This document shows positions 32,169 through 61,590 of a stretch of DNA of 64,000 bases, piece after piece. This DNA comes from Hysterangium stoloniferum. Its lineage: Eukaryota; Basidiomycota; Agaricomycetes; Hysterangiales; Hysterangiaceae. The notes under the pieces were generated by a model. It did no database searches and had not been told where the DNA came from. It saw nothing but the letters and a program-made list of their open reading frames with translations. The position numbers and the translations under genes are program-made. The stretch is from positions 868,001-932,000 of the forward strand of contig WHVD01000019.1 of assembly GCA_015178975.1 (NCBI GenBank), in the 5' to 3' direction. Each line of letters begins with the position of its first letter. The stretch's first letter is position 1.

Positions 32169-34463
32169 CTAAGGGCTCCTTTTGTATAGCACTCGACGTG
32201 CATTCCCTGCAGGTCCTTCAGCGCAGGCCTCAAAAATTTTCCACTTTATTTGCATCATTTTAGTTCAAGATATTATTGCATCATTTATTGAGATATCTAC
32301 CTTGAAGTCTTTGGGATGACAGAAACAAATGTTATGCCACCGCGAAGACGCTTGTAGTGAATGAGATTCTTCTCAACAACTGATTTTACTGCATCTGCGA
32401 GAGCGGCGAGTTCGGTGGTAATGCTATGAGTCGTATTTAACATCGCAGAATTGCGTGGAACGATGTATGCAATGGGGAGTTCAGTTCCTTGAGTCTCAGA
32501 ATAGACGGATGACACTGCGGCTTCCTGAACGTCGGAAAGGCTTGATATGACGGCTTCGATTTCACTTGGCGATACTTGGAAACTATAAGGGATGAACGTC
32601 AGCACTTACTCCCGATTGAATTTAATTGGATGTTGACATGCCCTTTATACTGAATAATGCCAGGGAACCTCGTCTGACGAAACGATTATAAGTCGTATGT
32701 TCACGAACCTTTATAAGCTCTTTGAATCTCCCTGAGACTGCGGGCGCACGGTCAGTTAACGAAAAGCGTGAAAAAACCAAAATACTTGTTATATACCCGT
32801 CATCGTCCATGTACCCAATGTCGCCAGTGTGGACGCCGTCGGGATAGATTGTCTCCGCGGTCGCATTTGGGTTCTTGAGGTAACCCAACATCTGTGCAGG
32901 GCTACTAATGACAATCTCTCCTGGACGATTTTTCCCGACAGCTATTTAAGGAAAAAAAAATGAACTTGCGAAGAATGGCGTTATTTACAACTAACCCACA
33001 TTCTCCATCCATACCAATGATTTTGACTTGAACTAGAAAACTAGGTATCCCGCAGCTGTTCAACTTTGGTTCAATCTCCTTCCAGGTGTTGGTCCTGAAC
33101 CCAGAAATCGACCCAACTTCGGTCATTCCATAACTACCACCCGTCAATATATGAACGTAGAGGCTTACGGAGAACATACCCCTGTTTTGCAAGCAAGCCT
33201 ACGCACTCCCAGAGCTGCCTAACAATCGCCGGGGAAAGAGGTGCACCGCCAATTACGGCGAATCTTGCCGACTTCAAGGACAAAGATGGGTTATTGGGTA
33301 GACCATACTTAGCCAAAGCTACTGCAACTGGTGGGGCGAGAAATAAAATCGTCGCCTTGTGCTTTGTGACCAATCTTAGATAGTCCACAAGATCGAACTG
33401 CGAAGGGTGTATTTGCTCAGCGGCACAAGACATACCCTTGCAGCAGCTTACCTTCGATTGAAGAGTGATCGTTGCACCGATACAAGGAGCCTATATCAAA
33501 GTTGTCGTTTGGTCCTCCACCTGAGTTCGAATCAGTACCAGATGGCCACTCACCATTAAAGCTAAGGCATATAAGCCAAAGATATGGTAAAAGGGTGGAA
33601 CACCAATCCATTGCTATGAAACGCAGGGCGTCAAACATATCTCAAGAACTAAAAACCATAAAATACTTCTTCTGCTGAATATCCAGAATTGTACATATAG
33701 AGAAGTACAAGGCACGCTATAATAGCGCGATGAGTGATCATGGCGCCCTTTGACTTCCCGGTTGTACCTGCCAGTGTAACTACGTTAAATGCTGCGAAAT
33801 GATTGCAATGACTGAAGCGGTGCTTGCCAGACGTCCAGAGAATGAGTGCAAGCCTAGTATTTGCTTCTTCCGCCGACTTGGGAAGAAGAAGAAAATCAAT
33901 TAGTCAAGTCTCGAGTACGATATGCAGACGGCACGTACAAAAGGTTCAATTTCCAGCTCGTGGTCAGATAGAAGAGTTGTCCATCGATCATCAGAAGAGC
34001 TGGAAGGCACAGCCAAGAAAATGTCGACTTTCTTATGCTCAGCAGCTATGCAAGCTTTGCGTATATTATCGGCGCCATCGCCAGCTGGCCGACATATGAT
34101 GACCCGTGGTTCGCACAATTTAATGATATGTGCAAGTTCAGAAACCGTGCTGTGGGGATTGCTCCCAGTCACCGTCCAGCCTGCCGCAAAGAAACCCAGA
34201 GCAATGACGGGCCAGGAAACGCAATTGGGTAAATGTATGAGAACTACTGGTCCCGCAGACGAACGGCTCCCGAAATGGTTTGCTATAAGTGGTTTCCCAA
34301 ACCTTCCTCTTATTCCATTGGCGAGACGGAGTGAGTCGCGCCGCAATGTCTCGTAGTCGATACTTTCGGGCGAACTTGAATCCTGAAGTATAATTCTGTT
34401 GGGGGGAATTGGGGGGATTTTGTCAACCTTTATGCCGGATTTCGATGCGAGGGTATCAATCAT
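32169..34463 (-). CDS. AMP-binding acyl-CoA ligase-like protein (4CL-like)
   Basis: ANL superfamily enzymes activate carboxylic acids with ATP and transfer them to CoA. Exons on the minus strand from ATG 34,463. The N-domain contains VLIHLPNCVSWPVIALGFFA, then the P-loop LAGTTGKSKGAMITHR near 33,750. Next come ATILFLAPPVAVALAKYG with FAVIGGAPLSPAIV, the YGMTEVGS motif (about 33,130), and AQMLGYLKNPNATAETI with HTGDIGYMDDDGYI. The hinge and C-domain follow (GRFKELIKV; FQVSPSEIEAVISS). The final exon reads GNARRVLYKRSP, ending at TAG 32,169-32,171. The lysine of the usual PKx-x-GK motif, which binds the acyl-adenylate, is Asn here (GN). The product may be impaired or have another role. Substrate not predictable. 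Confidence 0.82.
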
Positions 34464-34469
34464 CGTGGG

Positions 34470-36545
34470 TGAGCTGAATGGTTTGGAAAATATGAAGGAG
34501 CTACAAAGAGTGTTAACAATGGATATGATATTGATTCGTGGAGATATATATCATACTGTATATTGCAGTGAGGGAACATGTCACTGTATAGTGTCAGTTG
34601 ATCTTTGGCAGCCTTGAAGAGAATATGGCCGTCAGCTGTAGTTTTATGCATATATAAAGATTGTAATTTAAATTCATACCATCTTCCCCAATGTATAACG
34701 TGTGATGGGTAACTCGAGTGTCAGACCAGTGGATGTAGAACCGTATCGTTTAGAATAAAGTTTAACAGGGCGGTGGCTGTTTAAGGTGATGGAATCTTTT
34801 GCCCTCAAGTCTCAGTCGGAACTGGTTCCTTCCATATCAACAGTGAATAAGTATTTCCCCCATACGAAGGCTTTGCCAAAACACCGGATCCTGATGTGAT
34901 CAAATGCTAAGTTGCCAAGACGCGTCGCTTTGGTTTGTTTCTTGTTGGTAAGCATTGTTTGAGGCACTTTTGGTCCTACTGACAGCTGATACGCTGTTTC
35001 TCAAGTTAGATGATTGACCCAGTCTGAGCTCCCAGCTACAAGTATGTATTTTATTTCATTCTGAAAGTATATATGTGAGATAGATTGCTTCCTTAGAGAG
35101 TGACCGAAAGCCCATACGGATGTATGATACATGTTGTGTGCCCCGCGCATGCTGTGGTGTGGAGCGACACGCAAAAGATATTATTTCCCGTTTTGGAGTC
35201 TGCGAGCCATAGAAGCTGCGAGACTCGTGTGTTGTTTCAGATGATTGATTCTGAGATTGAATTAAGTAAATTTGGTCATGTAGTTAGCGTAAAATATTTA
35301 ACACATATATCTTATTTGAATTTTTTAAATTTATTTCATATATTAATACAAGAAATTTTATGCGTCTAAGGGTATGAGACATCTAGCAAAGAACATATAT
35401 GGGCTTTCGCTGGTTGCCCGTGCATGGAATCCGTCACGATAACTGATAATTTTTTTTTTTTTAAGTGGGAACTTGGTGGCAATCTGGAACCAGCTGACTG
35501 GGTTGGAATCACAACTGACATTGAATTTCCTTGCACATCAGCCATGCTTAACGTCGCTGGTTTAGGGTTTAAAGTTTAGCAGTATTGCCAGCTGAAGGGC
35601 GCCACACCGTTTCTAGTGGTTTTGATAGTTTCCGATGGTCGAGCTCCTGGAGAGGAATGGACGCCCACGCCAATTGTTAAGTAACGGTTAACAGGTATTA
35701 CTAGTTAGTGGTGCTTTTGCTAGCAAATTTATTTACAGATTGATTCCTTTTTAGTTTCTGGTTTATTTTGGAAGACTACTCTCATGAGACTTTGAGAAGA
35801 CTTCAGTGCTCAGGCGCTGGTAACATTGCAACTCGTCCATAACGCCATCCACAGTTTGTGTTATTTAGGTGTGGTGGGGCCATTTTCAGGTTTTTTTGGT
35901 AGTTTCTGTAATTTCATAAATAACAACGACAGTAAAATCTCCTTGTTGAGTGATGCATTTCTTCGTCAATTGAGCGCTGTAATTAAACAGTCAAATTTAT
36001 CTGGAGAGTGACGAAAGATATTTTTCACTGACAGCCTAAAGTTCACTATGCCAGCCCTTAACAACGCCTCCCAAATCCCTAGACCCAAGGCACATTAGAA
36101 ACTGGCGAGAAAAGCTTATCGTAAAATCTGACACATTCCTGTGCAGGAACACTGCTTCCTCCGTCATTGGCTAACAAGGACCGGCTGCAGCCTAAGCCGG
36201 CTTGATTCAGCCGTCTCCAAAGCTGAGCTGTCGCTAGCTGTTGCCCGATAGCTCAGCTTAAATCCCATTGCTTGGCCCACGCTAAGCGCCAAGCCGCCGG
36301 CAACATAGTAGTCCCGAGTCTCAGCACCGAGTCTCATCATCATCATGAAACCCCACAGCCAACGCGATGTTCTGGGCTGTTCGGTGGTATACATCGATTA
36401 ATTAATCGCCATGTTTCATAATAGGGGCATCCGAGTCAGGGTTAACATTTGTGACCCTTACGCTAGGAAGTGATTTAGGGGTTTAATTACGTAAGTTACT
36501 TATTCGTTTTGTGTACTTTCCAGTGATCCATTTATTGCTTCGAAT
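34470..36545. other. Intergenic, one dispersed repeat, no supported gene
   Basis: About 2 kb upstream of the ligase gene (-) and of the next gene (+), so it should hold two divergent promoters. 36,172-36,310 is a diverged copy of the repeat at 25,705-25,825. A run of T occurs near 35,451-35,462. Frames at 35,100-35,369 and 35,826-36,011 are unsupported. Confidence 0.45.
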
Positions 36546-39092: not shown

Positions 39093-41588
39093 CTACACCA
39101 AGGCCTGTAATTTCAAGAAGTCCGGCGTACCCAATCCCGTGACTGGGTCCCATCCAGCACGTGCTGATATTACAATCATCAATTCGCAGCATGAGAGTAA
39201 ATCGATACGAATGAAAGCCTTACCTGGGAAGCCATTCGTTCCGCATCCAGGGTTATCGCCCGTAGTGATGTCATTGAAGCCACTCGGGATGGTGTAAATA
39301 AGCGGGTTGAGAAAACCAAGCGAAGGCTTGCCGTTCGCAAGACGGAAGTCGTTTAAGAGTGCGATGACACCCGCAAATGTCTGGGGATTGATTAACGGGC
39401 TCAGAATGTTGTAAATAATTTCGGAAGATCCATGACTCACAGGCGAGCTGGCCGATGTTCCAGCAACCGATTCTGTTATTCCACGCACGATGACTTGAAA
39501 TCCTTCACCTTGAGCAGCTACGTCCGGGTACGCCCGACCGGAGACACTTGGATACATAGTTAGCACTCGGCACAAACTTGATCCTTGTGATGAGAATACA
39601 TACTTGAACAGCCCTTTGTTCGTCGCACCCAAAGCCGTCAAGTACGTGCTAACAGCCGCAGTTTGGTAGGACGGTTGAGCGAAGAAGTTGGAAAATCCCC
39701 CGCCTGAGAAGCCAATGGCCGTTTCAGGGTTGGTTCTGGTTGTGGCCCCGACTGTGGTGACGAATGGACAACTGAAGCAGATGGTAAACATATTATTTGC
39801 GAACATGGTATGGAAGTATACCTCGCAGGGAAGTTGGGCTGGAAACGTTCGATGTTTTGGCCGTCGTTGGTTAAGCAATCTCCGGCACCCACCCCGCTAT
39901 TGCTTTCTTTGAGCAAGGGCGATGATTAAGGTAAGGAAAAACGCACTCATCACCGCTACTGAACATGATGCTGCTACCACGCGCACCGAGCTGAGCAAAA
40001 CCATTGCATACGCGGCTGTGGCGTGGATTAATGATGGAAATAATAGATGGATTCTCTGTTATACACTTACACAGCGAAATCTTCGGGGACGGTTTGTTCT
40101 ATAGTGCGAATTCATTCAATAACGCAAATTTTGCACTTAGCGAGGTTAAAATCATACCATCGTCACCGTAGCTCTGGTTCAATAGATTAGGTCAGATGGA
40201 ATAGGTATGAATATGTACAATAGACAACCTACAGTCGTGAAGGTCTGCGGGACAGTGGTCTGGTTTAGAATGAAATTCAACCCTAGTATGATTATAATGA
40301 ATTTAAATATTGAAGATTAAAACAAATGTCTGCTTACAGTCAAGGTATGGCTCGTTAGTGTTTGTGGGAGTGTTTGAGTCGGGAATGAAGGGGGGTGAAC
40401 CACCAGTGGAGAAATATATGTTTGGGGTCGGGAATGACATGCCCTCGGTGTACTAAGTCAAGTGACGTGGATCACTCAAACACTATACACAGAATCAGCA
40501 TTGGGAGATACCTGAATATCCAAATTGGCCTCCACACCCGGCTGGTTCTGGTTGTTACCCCCTCCATTCTACATAAAGTATCGGATACCAAACTGTGATA
40601 GGAAGACCCACAACTTACCACTTGAACGGTAGTGAAGGTTCCGCCAACTGCGTCAGTTCTGAACTTTTGGAAGAAAGTCTATTGTTTATTAGTCATTATC
40701 AGTAGCCCGATTGCTGTGGTGCCAAAACACGCCTGCAAATCCGCGTTGTTCGCAAATTCTCCCAAATATCCTGCAACACCAAGTTTGTTGACATTCGTCG
40801 CAGCAGGAACGTAATTAATTGTGTTGTACAACGTGCGCAGGCAAGATGGCGTAATTTTCGTATTACAAGTGGTCGGCGGAACGGCGAGACCAGAGAATTC
40901 ATCGGGGCCCTCATCTTTAACGGGAGGCTGCAAAAATGAAGTGGCCTTCATCTTTTTCAAGCGTCCAAACATCGTGGTTGGCTCCACGACATCAATATGA
41001 GAGTGTACCGAGCGGGGAAGACTCCATTCAAGTGTGCGAACGGTATATTCTCCGGATTCTTTGTGGCGGAATACCTGGTACTTAGTGTTAAACATGCTCT
41101 CTGCCTTAGATAACGGTACGGAGAGATGCATCCAATCGCCTGCTGTTGTGCGTCCGCAGCTCGATGGCTCGATGTCGTGGGTGCGGAGCCATGAATCAAC
41201 TGCATCCAAAGTCTCAGAATGCGGGGCAACGAGTTTATCGACTTCCTCCTTTGAGAGATGTTGGCCATAGCGGGGGTGTGCAGGGTCGCTCACTTCGTAG
41301 AGATGCCTGATGACATCGTCAATATTGCCTTCCTATAAAATAAATTGCCGACGATTGCGAGATAAGTTTAGAAATTTATGCCCTTGGTATTATCAAATAT
41401 ACCTTGAGGCCAATACGTAAATTGATCATATGGCTTTCGGGTGCGTCTCCGTGGACCTCCCAGCCATTTGGCACTGCAGCCCAGCTGTGTTTGACCTGGA
41501 AGGCCTCGCGATCCGACAATGGTGAAGCTACAGCATGAAGACTCAAGCTTGAGACTAAGAGGGGTACGAGAGCAGCAAACCAGATCAT
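39093..41588 (-). CDS. Secreted sedolisin (S53 serine-carboxyl peptidase, tripeptidyl-peptidase type)
   Basis: ATG 41,588, then a signal peptide (MIWFAALVPLLVSSLSLHAV, cleavage near ASPLSD). The pro-domain has ESHMINLRIGLK, PAHPRYGQHLSKEEVDKLVA and MFNTKYQVFRHKESGEYTVR. The mature part runs CLRTLYNTINYVPA; the exon with GVEANLDIQ, carrying the Glu and Asp of the catalytic triad (about 40,515); YLDWLNFILNQTTVPQTFTT-type and SYGDDG pieces; RVCNGFAQLGARGSSIMFSS; and CPFVTTVGATTR. The catalytic Ser follows in SVAGTSASSP (about 39,450). GWDPVTGLGTPDF near 39,110-39,150 is the calcium-binding end. About ten short introns. All catalytic positions are present, so it is probably active: acid peptidase outside the cell or in the vacuole. 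Confidence 0.9.
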
Positions 41589-43353: not shown

Positions 43354-43928
43354 ATGGGAAAAGGTATAGTGGATCATCCTTTAGAACATTACTCTGTTTT
43401 CTAATGCTTTGATTCTTTAGGTATAACCTAATGACAAGCCAACACACAATGGCTGACGTCTTTCTCCGATTCATTTAGTTCACGGATCGCTCGCTCGTGC
43501 GGGTAAAGTAAAATCACAGACACCTAAAGTCGAAAAGCAGGAAAAGAAGAAGACTCCACGAGGACGGGCGAAGAAGCGTCTTGTCTACAACCGTCGGTAT
43601 GTAATGTACCCAATGGATCTGGGGACGTTTCGGACTTACATTCTTTTAGATTCGTCAACGTCACACTTCTGCCAGGAGGCAAGCGACGGATGTGAGTAGT
43701 CCGTTTCTTGACTTTCTTGCACGACAGCATTGTTGCAGGCTGCTGTTGACTTGCTTGCCTGATGATCCACAACCAATGCATAGTTCACACTGAATTAATT
43801 CTTGTTGACAAACATACATCTAACGTCTTTCGCTCCTATCTGATCCTCATACCGTCTTTCTCTGTTCAATACGAGAGATTGTGCTGATTGTCTTGTCTGT
43901 CCACAGGAACCCCAACCCCGAGAAATAA
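43354..43928 (+). CDS. RPS30: 40S ribosomal protein S30 (eS30)
   Basis: Small-subunit ribosomal protein in four exons: 43,354-43,363, 43,479-43,596, 43,650-43,691 and 43,907-43,928. Joined, they read [15 protein letters not shown]...[17 protein letters not shown]...GGKRRMNPNPEK, about 62 residues, full length for eS30. As in other fungi there is no ubiquitin-like fusion partner. The first exon is only 10 bases. The third intron (43,692-43,906, 215 bp) is much longer than the others and contains a C/D-box snoRNA. Splicing of this highly expressed gene would release the snoRNA. Confidence 0.95.
43757..43847 (+). ncRNA. C/D-box snoRNA, snR60/U80 (SNORD80) type, in RPS30 intron 3
   Basis: C box TGATGA at 43,760-43,765, D' box CTGA at 43,790-43,793, C'-like TGTTGA near 43,803, D box CTGA at 43,840-43,843. 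The guide before D, GTCTTTCGCTCCTAT (43,825-43,839), pairs with the 25S/28S rRNA segment AUAGGGGCGAAAGAC with one G:U. The same guide is in human SNORD80. The guide before D', GCATAGTTCAC (43,778-43,788), pairs with GUGAACUAUGC in 25S rRNA. These are the two targets of yeast snR60 (Am817 and Gm908). It would direct 2'-O-methylation in the nucleolus. Confidence 0.9.
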
Positions 43929-44307
43929 AATGGTGTCTTAGAGCCTTTGCCTTGAACATCGCCTCATTTCCCGCCAAAACCTACTCAATGGGACCATTTA
44001 AGTCATATTGCATGTGTTTATATTGCGTCATACTGCCTTATACGAATGCTCTATGCAACTCGCTTTCTTAATCTATTATACCATTGTGTGAGGATCCTGA
44101 CTCCATGGATGTATGAACATTCGGCATGTTTCTTTTTTCTCTCTCTTCATGTTATCAACGTCTAAGCATTGCATGCCTCACCTCCATAACACGTGTGGTC
44201 ACCTGTGTATCATCCGAGGCTTCTATTTCCCAACTCATAAACCCATGCACCGCCAAGCTTTGTATTGTGAGTGTCTTTTTCTGTTTTCCATGGGCTCCGT
44301 CCTCGTC

Positions 44308-44399
44308 GCCTGATGAACCACAAACCAATGCATAGTTCACACTGAATTATTTTCTGTTGACAAATATTCATCTAACGTCTTTCGCTCCTATCTGATTAT
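44308..44399 (+). ncRNA. Second copy of the snR60/U80-type C/D snoRNA, downstream of RPS30
   Basis: C box TGATGA 44,311-44,316, D' box CTGA 44,342-44,345, guide GTCTTTCGCTCCTAT 44,377-44,391, D box CTGA 44,392-44,395. Both guides are identical to the intronic copy, while spacer bases between the boxes differ. That pattern is expected if both copies are under selection. It lies 380 bp after the RPS30 stop, outside any coding intron I can define. It may sit in an intron of a 3'-UTR or of a non-coding host transcript, or have its own promoter. Some flanking similarity to the intron (ccgtctt..tctttgtt) suggests duplication of the intron. Confidence 0.85.
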
Positions 44400-44927
44400 T
44401 TTCCATCGTCTTATTCTTTGTTTGATGAACCATATACTGATTACTGAGTTACTCGTAGAACTCTATAGATTCGTGGCTGTGATGATCCCTGTGTTTGGGT
44501 GGGCAGGTCTCATTTGGAGTGAGTGTCTGAACTGTAAGTGGCGGTAACATGCTGTGCGATAGTAGAACGCGATGGTTTCATCGCCTCCGGCTTGGGATGA
44601 TGCTGTACTACATTGCGGTAATATGTGTTAAGACCAAGTATTGCGATACTGTATATGTACTTGCTATCCTAACTACTACCTGGCCGTGACCTTGGGCACC
44701 GAGTGGCTGCGTACAATAGCTAGTGCTTTTGCATATCCTTCTTGGAGTATGCAGTGTGGAAGGAGTGGAAGCCATATTGTTTTTCCTCATTGTTCTTCCT
44801 CACTCTTCTGCCGAGCATTCCTCTTTCCGCGCCACCTTCAATGATTCGTATAAATATTGATTTATATTGATTGTACTATGTGACTCATGCTACATGTCAC
44901 TCACGCTGGACTTACCATCTCTTTCAG
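44400..44927. other. Spacer, no supported gene
   Basis: Follows the second snoRNA. Further TGATGA and CTGA words occur near 44,422-44,446 and 44,480-44,530, but no complementary rRNA guide was recognised. Confidence 0.35.
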
Positions 44928-45646
44928 ATATCGGCAGACGGTTGAAAGAATGGGAACTCAATTCTTCGCCGTCTTTGAGCTCAGCAAAGTTCATTGCAAG
45001 GCAGCTATATGACTCTCTGAAGGTGCAGTTTCTCACCGTCTTCCCGACAAGCTTCATCCCCATATTGACGACACGTCTTCTGACTCTCTTTCAGCAAAGC
45101 GAACAGACGAACGCGGATCTTGTACAACTGTTCTGTGAACAAATCCAGGTAGTATTATGGTTAGAAATGTGCATGCCGATCATCCGAGATACCGTTACCG
45201 TTGATACTGTGAAGAATACTTGCGTCAGGTTCGCACCTCTATCAGTGTCACTATGGATCATCTTTTGATAAAGTGTTGTATAACTCAGAGGGATGGTGGA
45301 GATTCTCAATTTTGAACAAGCCTATTCGGGGTGGTTAGCACGTATCTTTGGTGGACGCAGACGGGCTGTCTCTCGCTTAAGCGACCGCCTGCACCGGGAA
45401 GCGAACGAGTCTGTTGTACGGTGATTCGTACTCCTCTATCAATTCTATGGTATTCACCCTTTCCAGAACTTGATGATGTTTTCAACCACCCTCTCCACTC
45501 ACCGGAAGGTCCTTGATATTGAGGAGAAGGTAGTTCGTGGAATAGCAAGCTGGGAAGAGATGAGGTCTCTCATGCGCACTATCAAGAACGAAATGGAGCC
45601 TGCATCGAGCGATGTCGATGAGTCGTGGGCCAGATTTGGTTATTAA
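44928..45646 (+). CDS. Hypothetical helical protein, 5' end not resolved
   Basis: Exons identified by splice signals and continuous helical character. 44,928-45,022 encodes a segment with DIGRRLKEWELNSSPSLSSA and ending ARQLYDSLK; 45,095-45,148 has QSEQTNADLVQLFCEQIQ. A later exon around 45,298-45,420 has NFEQAYSGWLARIFGGRRRA and VSRLSDRLHREANESVV. The last (from about 45,470) has LMMFSTTLSTHRKVLDIEEK and SWEEMRSLMRTIKNEMEP and ends at TAA 45,644-45,646. The protein would be almost all helix. No family is recognised, and a start codon in a first exon was not found, so the gene may be longer or 5'-truncated. Downstream lies the CpG-poor repeat block. Confidence 0.5.
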
Positions 45647-59825: not shown

Positions 59826-59985
59826 GCAACCCTTTTTTTTGCTTACTGTAGGCATAATTCATAATATAATGGTTTGCCAATACAATTGTATGTTCCAATG
59901 TATATTTACTAGCAATGACCAAAAATATTATTCAGGACTTGTTAAGACCTTTCAAAGAGAAGTAAAGTGATCTGTAGAACACCTA

Positions 59986-61590
59986 CAGTGAGGGACAAAA
60001 CCCTTCCAATGATTTTTAGTTCTGCAAAGATTCTTGAATAGCTCAAGAACCACTGTAGATACAGACTTGAAATTTGGAGGTTGGTTAGGTCTACATGTTA
60101 TCTATATGTCCTTAAAATATTATGACATGAACATTAGTATTTCCCATACTATAAATAAAATAATAATAAAATCACATTGGAAGGGTTTTGTCCCAGTCAC
60201 ATGATTGACACAAAAACTTATTGATTATCGGTAAATAAGGTTTTGTTTAATCATGTGACCTGTCAAAATTAGATATATATATATAGCTGTTCACTTTCTA
60301 GTTCAACAACATCCCCACAACTCAACATTCTATACCATGAAAGCCCTCACTCCTGCTCAGGTTAGCCATATTCTCACTTTGCTCAATAAGGGCAAGTCTG
60401 CTTCTCAGATCTCTGCAATCACTGGCAGAGGTCTTTCTACTATATCCAGAATTCGCTTTACCCATTGCCCATCACTTGCCAAAGCACCTGGTGGCTGTCC
60501 ATGCAAGCTTTCTCCCTCAGATATTCATTATTCCATCCAACAAATCACTTCTCAGAAGACAGAATGTGCCACTGAGGTCACCAAAATCCTTCAAATATGA
60601 CTGGAGAGTCCATCTCAGTGAAGACTGTTCATAGAGCACTCAAGAAGGCTGGAATGAGGGCTGTGGTGAAGAGAAAAAGGCCTTTACTCACTAAGAGGCA
60701 TAGGAAGGCAAGGATGGACTTTGCTTTGGCACACAAGGACTGGACTGTGGATGATTGGAAGAGGGTTGTTTGGTCAGATGAGACCAAAATCAATCATTTG
60801 GGGTCAGATGGGAGGAAGTGGGTGCGGAAAAGGGCAGGAGAGGGGCTTAGTGATAGGGTGGTTGAGGGTACAGTCAAGTTTGGAGGAGGAAATCTGATGT
60901 TGTGGGGCTGTATGTTGTGGGAAGGACCAGGATATTCCACCAAGATTGATGGAAGGATGGATGCTGACCTTTATATTAGCATTCTGGAAGATGAACTTCA
61001 AGCAACCATGGAGTATTATGGCAAGAACACAGAAGATGTGGTCTTTCAGCAAGACAATGACCCCAAACACAAGAGCAAAAAGGCCACCAATTGGTTTAAA
61101 GACAATGGATTTGTGGTCATGGTATGGCCACCTCAGTCTGCTGACCTTAATCCAATTGAACACCTCTGGTATTACCTCAAAAGGAGGCTGGGAGAGTATG
61201 AAGTGGCACCCAAGAGTATTCATGAGTTGTGGGAGAGGGTTCAGACAGAGTGGGAGAAGATCCCTGCCTCTACTTGTCAGAACTTGATAGAGAGTATGCC
61301 TAGAAGGGTTGAGGCTGTTTTGAAGGCCAAGAGAGGCTATACCAAGTACTAGATTGTTTGATTTGTATTTTTTTAATACCAGGGACAAAACCCTTCCAAT
61401 GTGACTTTATTAGTGTTTTATTTATAGCATGGGAAATACTAATGTTTATGTCATAATTTTCTAAGGGCATATAGATAACATATAGACCTAACCAACATCC
61501 AAATTTCAGATCTGTATCTACAGTGGTTCTTGAGTTATTCAAGAATCTTTGTACAACTCAAAATCATTGGAAGGGTTTTGTCCCTCACTG
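59986..61590 (+). mobile_element. Tc1/mariner transposon with compound long terminal repeats (family 2)
   Basis: A 1,605-bp element flanked by TA (59,984-59,985 and 61,591-61,592). The outer ends read CAGTGAGGGACAAAACCC and its complement. Terminal repeats are 209 bp (59,986-60,194 and 61,382-61,590). Each is bounded by inverted copies of GGGACAAAACCCTTCCAATG. The sequence differs from family 1, but the architecture is the same. One transposase gene on the plus strand lies between them. Confidence 0.93.
60337..61352 (+). pseudogene. Tc1-type DD34E transposase of family 2, one frameshift
   Basis: The N-terminal frame (60,337-60,600) has the helix-turn-helix region (GKSASQISAITGRGLSTISR) and ends at a TGA overlapping an ATG at 60,597 in another frame. 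That frame carries the rest (60,597-61,352). Family resemblance runs from EVTKILQ straight into SVKTVHRALKKAGM, so a one-base indel near 60,597 explains the break. The catalytic residues are intact: Asp in VWSDETKIN, Asp in FQQDNDPKHKSKKA, Glu in SADLNPIEHLW (DD34E). It is inactive in this copy unless frameshifting occurs. It ends RGYTKY at 61,352, like family 1 (GGHTKY). Confidence 0.92.

Follow-up and report, generated by a model that had tools for sequence, protein, structure and literature searches.

In yeast, the box C/D snoRNA snR60 guides 25S Am817 and Gm908 (PMC2806949), and in Neurospora crassa CD48 guides 26S Am797 through its D' element and Gm888 through its D element (PMC2780460). 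A published table sets yeast Am817 beside its equivalents in other organisms (PMC11542601). Assembly of the C/D snoRNP has its optimum about 50 nt ahead of the branch point (PMC8162545), and in the main class of N. crassa C/D snoRNAs the distance to the 5' splice site is 41-60 nt (PMC2780460). In humans, recombination within one host gene is considered the main source of additional C/D copies (PMC8178906), so that the insertion of a bare snoRNA unit would be the less usual route.

Here, we describe a computational analysis of a 64-kb stretch of the Hysterangium stoloniferum genome (the window) in which two snR60 elements lie within and behind the gene encoding RPS30. By family score and motif content, both elements are snR60-family box C/D snoRNA genes, and their duplication is real, if fairly ordinary. 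What is new is one more duplication in a known snoRNA family, in which the second copy is likely to be intronic.

Results

Two snR60 elements and their guides

A covariance search of the 64-kb window against Rfam placed two elements on the + strand in RF00309 (snosnR60_Z15): copy 1 at 43750-43851, with 55.0 bits (E 1.2e-6), and copy 2 at 44301-44403, with 59.1 bits (E 1.4e-7). Both scores exceed the gathering cut-off of 41 bits, that of copy 2 being the higher, and the assignment to the snR60/U80 family that a sequence-only reading of this DNA had proposed is thereby upheld. No other match to any Rfam family reached its gathering level in the window; around RPS30, four further RNA-family matches were returned up to E 5, each below its own cut-off.

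On the + strand, each copy possesses an exact C box, TGATGA (43760-43765 in copy 1 and 44311-44316 in copy 2), followed by guide 1, GCATAGTTCAC (43778-43788 and 44330-44340), a D' box, CTGA (43790-43793 and 44342-44345), guide 2, GTCTTTCGCTCCTAT (43825-43839 and 44377-44391), and a D box, CTGA (43840-43843 and 44392-44395). Guides 1 and 2 sit next to D' and D, respectively, in both copies. The boxes and coordinates given in the sequence-only reading were correct, and the two guides, which it had described as intact, are letter-for-letter identical between the copies. A C'-like TGTTGA, recognized by eye, occurs 9 nt past D' in both elements, the distance from C box to C box is 551 bp, and the predicted folds of copies 1 and 2 contain no terminal stem (z 1.13 and 0.30).

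The RPS30 gene hosting copy 1

The RPS30 coding region is formed by four exons on the + strand (43354-43363, 43479-43596, 43650-43691 and 43907-43928) that join into a full 63-aa protein with the same sequence as the product of a second RPS30 gene on contig C290; Pfam PF04758 matches exon 2. The last intron, 43692-43906 on the + strand (GTGAGT ... CACAG), is defined by the exon joins and these motifs and holds copy 1, with the A of a branch motif, CTGAT, located 44 nt past the D-box A. Because the RPS30 frame requires the removal of 43692-43906, copy 1 lies inside a spliced intron, and its earlier placement in the last RPS30 intron is borne out by the joining of the exons to the complete protein. 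In a separate observation, RPS30 intron 1 (43364-43478) was seen to contain an internal TTTAG/GTATAAC, in which the AG adjoins a possible 5' splice site. The motif is also present in the C290 paralog (locus L007), and may serve as an alternative acceptor or for splicing in steps.

A third copy in a second RPS30 gene

The genome searched was a 111-Mb assembly of 554 contigs that includes the window. A family search that scored 60 out of 10,879 first-look candidates revealed at least three snR60 copies over the cut-off, the third of which (C290:132498-132599; RF00309, 52.5 bits) sits in the last intron of the second RPS30 gene. The Pfam S30 family was located at two places in the assembly, corresponding to the window and C290 RPS30 genes. 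The proteins encoded by these genes are identical, and the differences between the genes, which affect 18 of 64 codons and 11 of 36 four-fold sites, are all synonymous; the gene for S19e, the single control examined, was located once, by two exon matches on C124. On these grounds we rejected the possibility that the C290 gene is an allele, and it is treated here as a paralog, with S19e as the one control gene on which this status rests. On the 3' side of RPS30, the window and C290 loci match as far as 44075 and then in weak patches within 44997-45231 (BLAST, E 0.003 to 0.038). Apart from the snoRNA, nothing else in the assembly matches the segment 44200-44970, and copy 2 is thus without a counterpart behind the C290 RPS30.

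Several other candidates were set aside. A weak snR60 match on C185 (25.8 bits, E 2.67; E 0.95 in another search) was rejected as a further copy. The pattern of guide 1 plus D' occurs at four places in the genome, as does its backwards control; three of the four are the known copies, and the remaining one (C464, L011) gave no Rfam match up to E 1. Among viral contigs, a loose snR60 pattern was found in at least 120 stretches and is uninformative, and the D-guide pattern had no matches; two bacterial matches to the D-guide pattern are, by our own estimate, taken as chance.

Other features were noted along the way. A stretch of about 1.1 kb (59980-61063) is 92% identical to the reverse complement of L007 8818-9901 and is probably a dispersed repeat, and several shorter repeats near 48.8-50.2 kb are common to the window and C290 loci. 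Among 10 open frames of the window that were examined, a Pfam pro-kumamolisin activation domain match and an AMP-binding enzyme fragment were found on the - strand, at 40682-41332 and 33903-34550, respectively.

The age of the RPS30 intron site

In other Agaricomycetes, some of the RPS30 gene models that extend into the last intron contain the translated guides. From an RPS30 protein search the best 120 of 1,529 proteins were taken, and 122 proteins were compared in all. A GGKRRM-like motif is present in 109 of the 122, and 14 of these were judged by eye to have an intron-like tail. The guides translate as IVHTE (guide 1) and as SFAPI ending at the D-box stop (guide 2), and in a six-frame translation of the window (121,626 residues) each of these words occurs twice, which equals the number of copies. 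Both words are present in four of the 14 tailed models, those of Mycena crocata, Desarmillaria ectypa, Favolaschia claudopus and Mycena capillaripes, the last of which came from a search aimed at the guide signature. IVHTE alone is present in two Russula models marked partial, and the other eight of the 14 have neither word. Three of these eight (Cylindrobasidium torrendii, Pleurotus eryngii and Lactarius quietus) end where the GCA TAG of guide 1 would terminate them, past a C-box-like reading; as a trace of snR60, these ends are suggestive only. Nothing clear was seen in the tails of Gyrodon lividus, Boletus edulis, Gymnopus androsaceus, Mycena chlorophos and Mycena rosella.

Since guide translations are found in the RPS30 models of several genera, the last-intron site is shared among them. 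Judged by these translations, snR60 in the last RPS30 intron is old and common to several Agaricomycetes genera, which we take to belong to the Agaricales and Russulales. Among the titles and abstract starts listed in literature searches there was no published account of snR60 in a fungal RPS30 gene, which does not exclude publication; by term counts in the available parts of the two papers, snR60 is unmentioned in PMC3596301, and neither RPS30 nor snR60 is mentioned in PMC8216456.

Two points concern the public gene models themselves. The Agaricomycete RPS30 models P0045, P0063, P0082, P0090, P0108 and P0122 run into the last intron, so that their protein ends are translated snR60. The predicted protein P0121 (165 aa, from a contig of 2,666 bases in ENA) has no S30 domain and reads through a snR60-like IVHTE ... 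SFAPIW, the W after SFAPI implying TGG in place of the TGA of a D box.

In both window copies (43786-43793 and 44338-44345), as well as in the C290 copy, the spacing from guide 1 to D' is one base longer than in the Rfam consensus. As the IVHTE translation shows, RPS30 models from other Agaricomycetes share this extra base. By simple counting, it would move the D'+5 position by one, to the neighbouring A. The match of the guides to two 25S targets, put forward in the sequence-only reading, is a prediction. Copies 1 and 2 are both expected to modify the equivalents of yeast Am817 and Gm908, because both guides are intact.

Predicted splicing signals around copy 2

The sequence-only reading had placed copy 2 outside the RPS30 coding introns, and this is correct, as the last exon ends at 43928 and copy 2 occupies 44301-44403. 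A GTGAGT at 44267 precedes the first base of CTGATGA in copy 2 by 44 nt, a branch motif, CTGAT (44437-44441), has its A 45 nt past the D-box A, and YAG (TAG) candidate acceptors end at 44458 and 44468, together outlining a predicted + strand intron of 44267-44468 (or to 44458). In the two RPS30 introns the distance from D box to branch A is 44 and 43 nt, and that on the 5' side is 68 and 65 nt. A copy 2-like context with YAG is found at 0.04% of 127,000 window positions, both strands included, by a medium definition, at 0.014% by a strict definition fitted to the case, and at 0.8% by a loose one, the motifs having been chosen after the locus was seen and the count taking in the true copies, so that these figures lend support without amounting to proof.

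Copy 2 had been thought to imply either a non-coding exon or intron after RPS30 or an independent gene. A + strand intron fits best with the spacing of the GTGAGT, branch and YAG motifs, and the independent gene stays as a weaker rival. In the latter case, copy 2 would be transcribed from its own polymerase II promoter located between about 43930 and 44300. The 380 bp past the RPS30 stop leave room for such a promoter, and in N. crassa 9 of the 55 genes for C/D snoRNAs lie between other genes and have a putative promoter (PMC2780460), but copy 2 is surrounded by a GTGAGT, a branch motif and a YAG at host-like spacing, and we consider independent transcription rather unlikely. Copy 2 is probably intron-encoded, within a host intron predicted from motifs.

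Either an RPS30 transcript extended at its 3' end or the transcript of a possible downstream gene could host copy 2. The host need not be RPS30, because the start of this possible gene is found 13 nt past the acceptor at 44468. Open frames with in-phase GT-AG joins outline its first exons on the + strand at 44482-44533, which ends at GTAAGT, 44928-45022 and 45095-45148. By the same joining rule nine starts are possible, four of which use the GTGAGT at 44267 itself, and a gene beginning at 44482 is only a candidate. A protein search with its 108-aa product returned three candidates that share words with it, none of which scored; the product has no other place in its own genome, and the open frame 44861-45265 has no match in Pfam.

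Differences among the three copies

The copies were compared over 87 columns, of which 41 comprise the C box, the guides and the D' and D boxes, and 46 the remainder. Between copies 1 and 2, 7 of the 87 columns are unlike, one of them a gap; all seven belong to the 46 other columns and none to the 41 of the boxes and guides (Fisher p 0.013). The C290 copy differs from copy 1 in 11 of 87 columns and from copy 2 in 10 of 87, in each case exclusively among the 46 other columns and in 0 of 41 box and guide columns. Taken alone, the identity of boxes and guides could also reflect recent copying. A difference from copy 1 of just seven columns would also be expected of a recent, unexpressed snoRNA pseudogene that has yet to decay, but these differences spare all 41 box and guide columns, a bias that is modest at the p value given, and the Rfam score of copy 2 exceeds that of copy 1; we regard this explanation as improbable. 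That copy 2 is an assembly artefact, a misplaced repeat of copy 1, is scarcely credible given their seven differences, their unlike flanks and the lack of a second assembly match for 44200-44970 besides the snoRNA.

The origin of copy 2

The identity of copies 1 and 2 stops 2 bases before CTGATGA and 1 base past the D box. When the flanks of copy 2 were aligned with the RPS30 introns, the local score was reached by 161 to 599 of 2000 shuffles and the end-to-end score by 18 to 104 of 2000; for the flanks of the two RPS30 introns against each other, which served as the control pair, none of 2000 shuffles reached the score. Because the flanks of copy 2 show a weak resemblance to the RPS30 introns rather than a clear match, it is probable that only the bare snoRNA unit moved to the copy 2 site. 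Alternatively, copy 2 may be a duplicated whole intron whose flanks decayed. If the bare unit was inserted, the simplest reading is that this occurred after the RPS30 duplication, an order that depends on a small number of variable sites. The 5-base direct repeat TCGTC found on either side of copy 2 is not long enough to be regarded as a target-site duplication.

A more specific scenario is an early host jump, in which a mature snR60 molecule was reverse-transcribed and the DNA inserted into the first intron of the gene next to RPS30, with a spacing compatible with splicing. We hold this to be quite unlikely; if true, two different host genes, separated by half a kilobase, would now provide one guide RNA.

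Discussion

Taken together, it is reasonably probable that both elements are snR60 genes, that copy 1 derives from the last intron of RPS30, and that copy 2 is intact and derives, most likely, from an intron extending from 44267 to 44458 or 44468. Copy 1 would be made from the last intron of the RPS30 pre-mRNA, and copy 2 most likely from an intron of an RPS30 3' extension or of a possible downstream gene. Splicing would free the snoRNA-bearing intron, the C/D snoRNP would assemble with the branch point about 45 nt downstream of it, and the snoRNP methylase would modify the two 25S counterparts of yeast Am817 and Gm908. Copy 2 itself probably stems from the insertion of a bare snoRNA unit after RPS30 had been duplicated; it would add dose and would be redundant with the other copies.

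This duplication leaves the established role of snR60 as it was. The locus offers a clean natural case of how intronic snoRNAs gain copies and hosts, composed of an old site in the last RPS30 intron, a duplicated host that has kept its snoRNA, and a copy 2 whose identity ends near the ends of the RNA. Expression of copy 2, if it occurs, could be measured separately from that of copy 1 by the bases private to copy 2.

Yeast snR60 (PMC2806949) belongs to the same Rfam family, RF00309, and has both guides; compared with it, the snoRNA described here is encoded in an RPS30 intron and is present three times, and relative to the Rfam consensus it has an extra base between guide 1 and D'. N. crassa CD48, a snR60 homologue, is likewise intronic and is listed once in that survey (PMC2780460). 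Among agaricomycetes, snosnR60_Z15.1 of Pleurotus ostreatus is also intronic (gene g7941) and is listed as one copy, with no downstream copy (PMC5040776). The human C/D families with multiple copies in one host gene are alike in that the nearby second copy here apparently lies in another intron, but this second intron, which is predicted, would lie past the RPS30 stop codon or belong to the gene that follows, and around copy 2 the flanks are without a clear sign of whole-intron duplication (PMC8178906).
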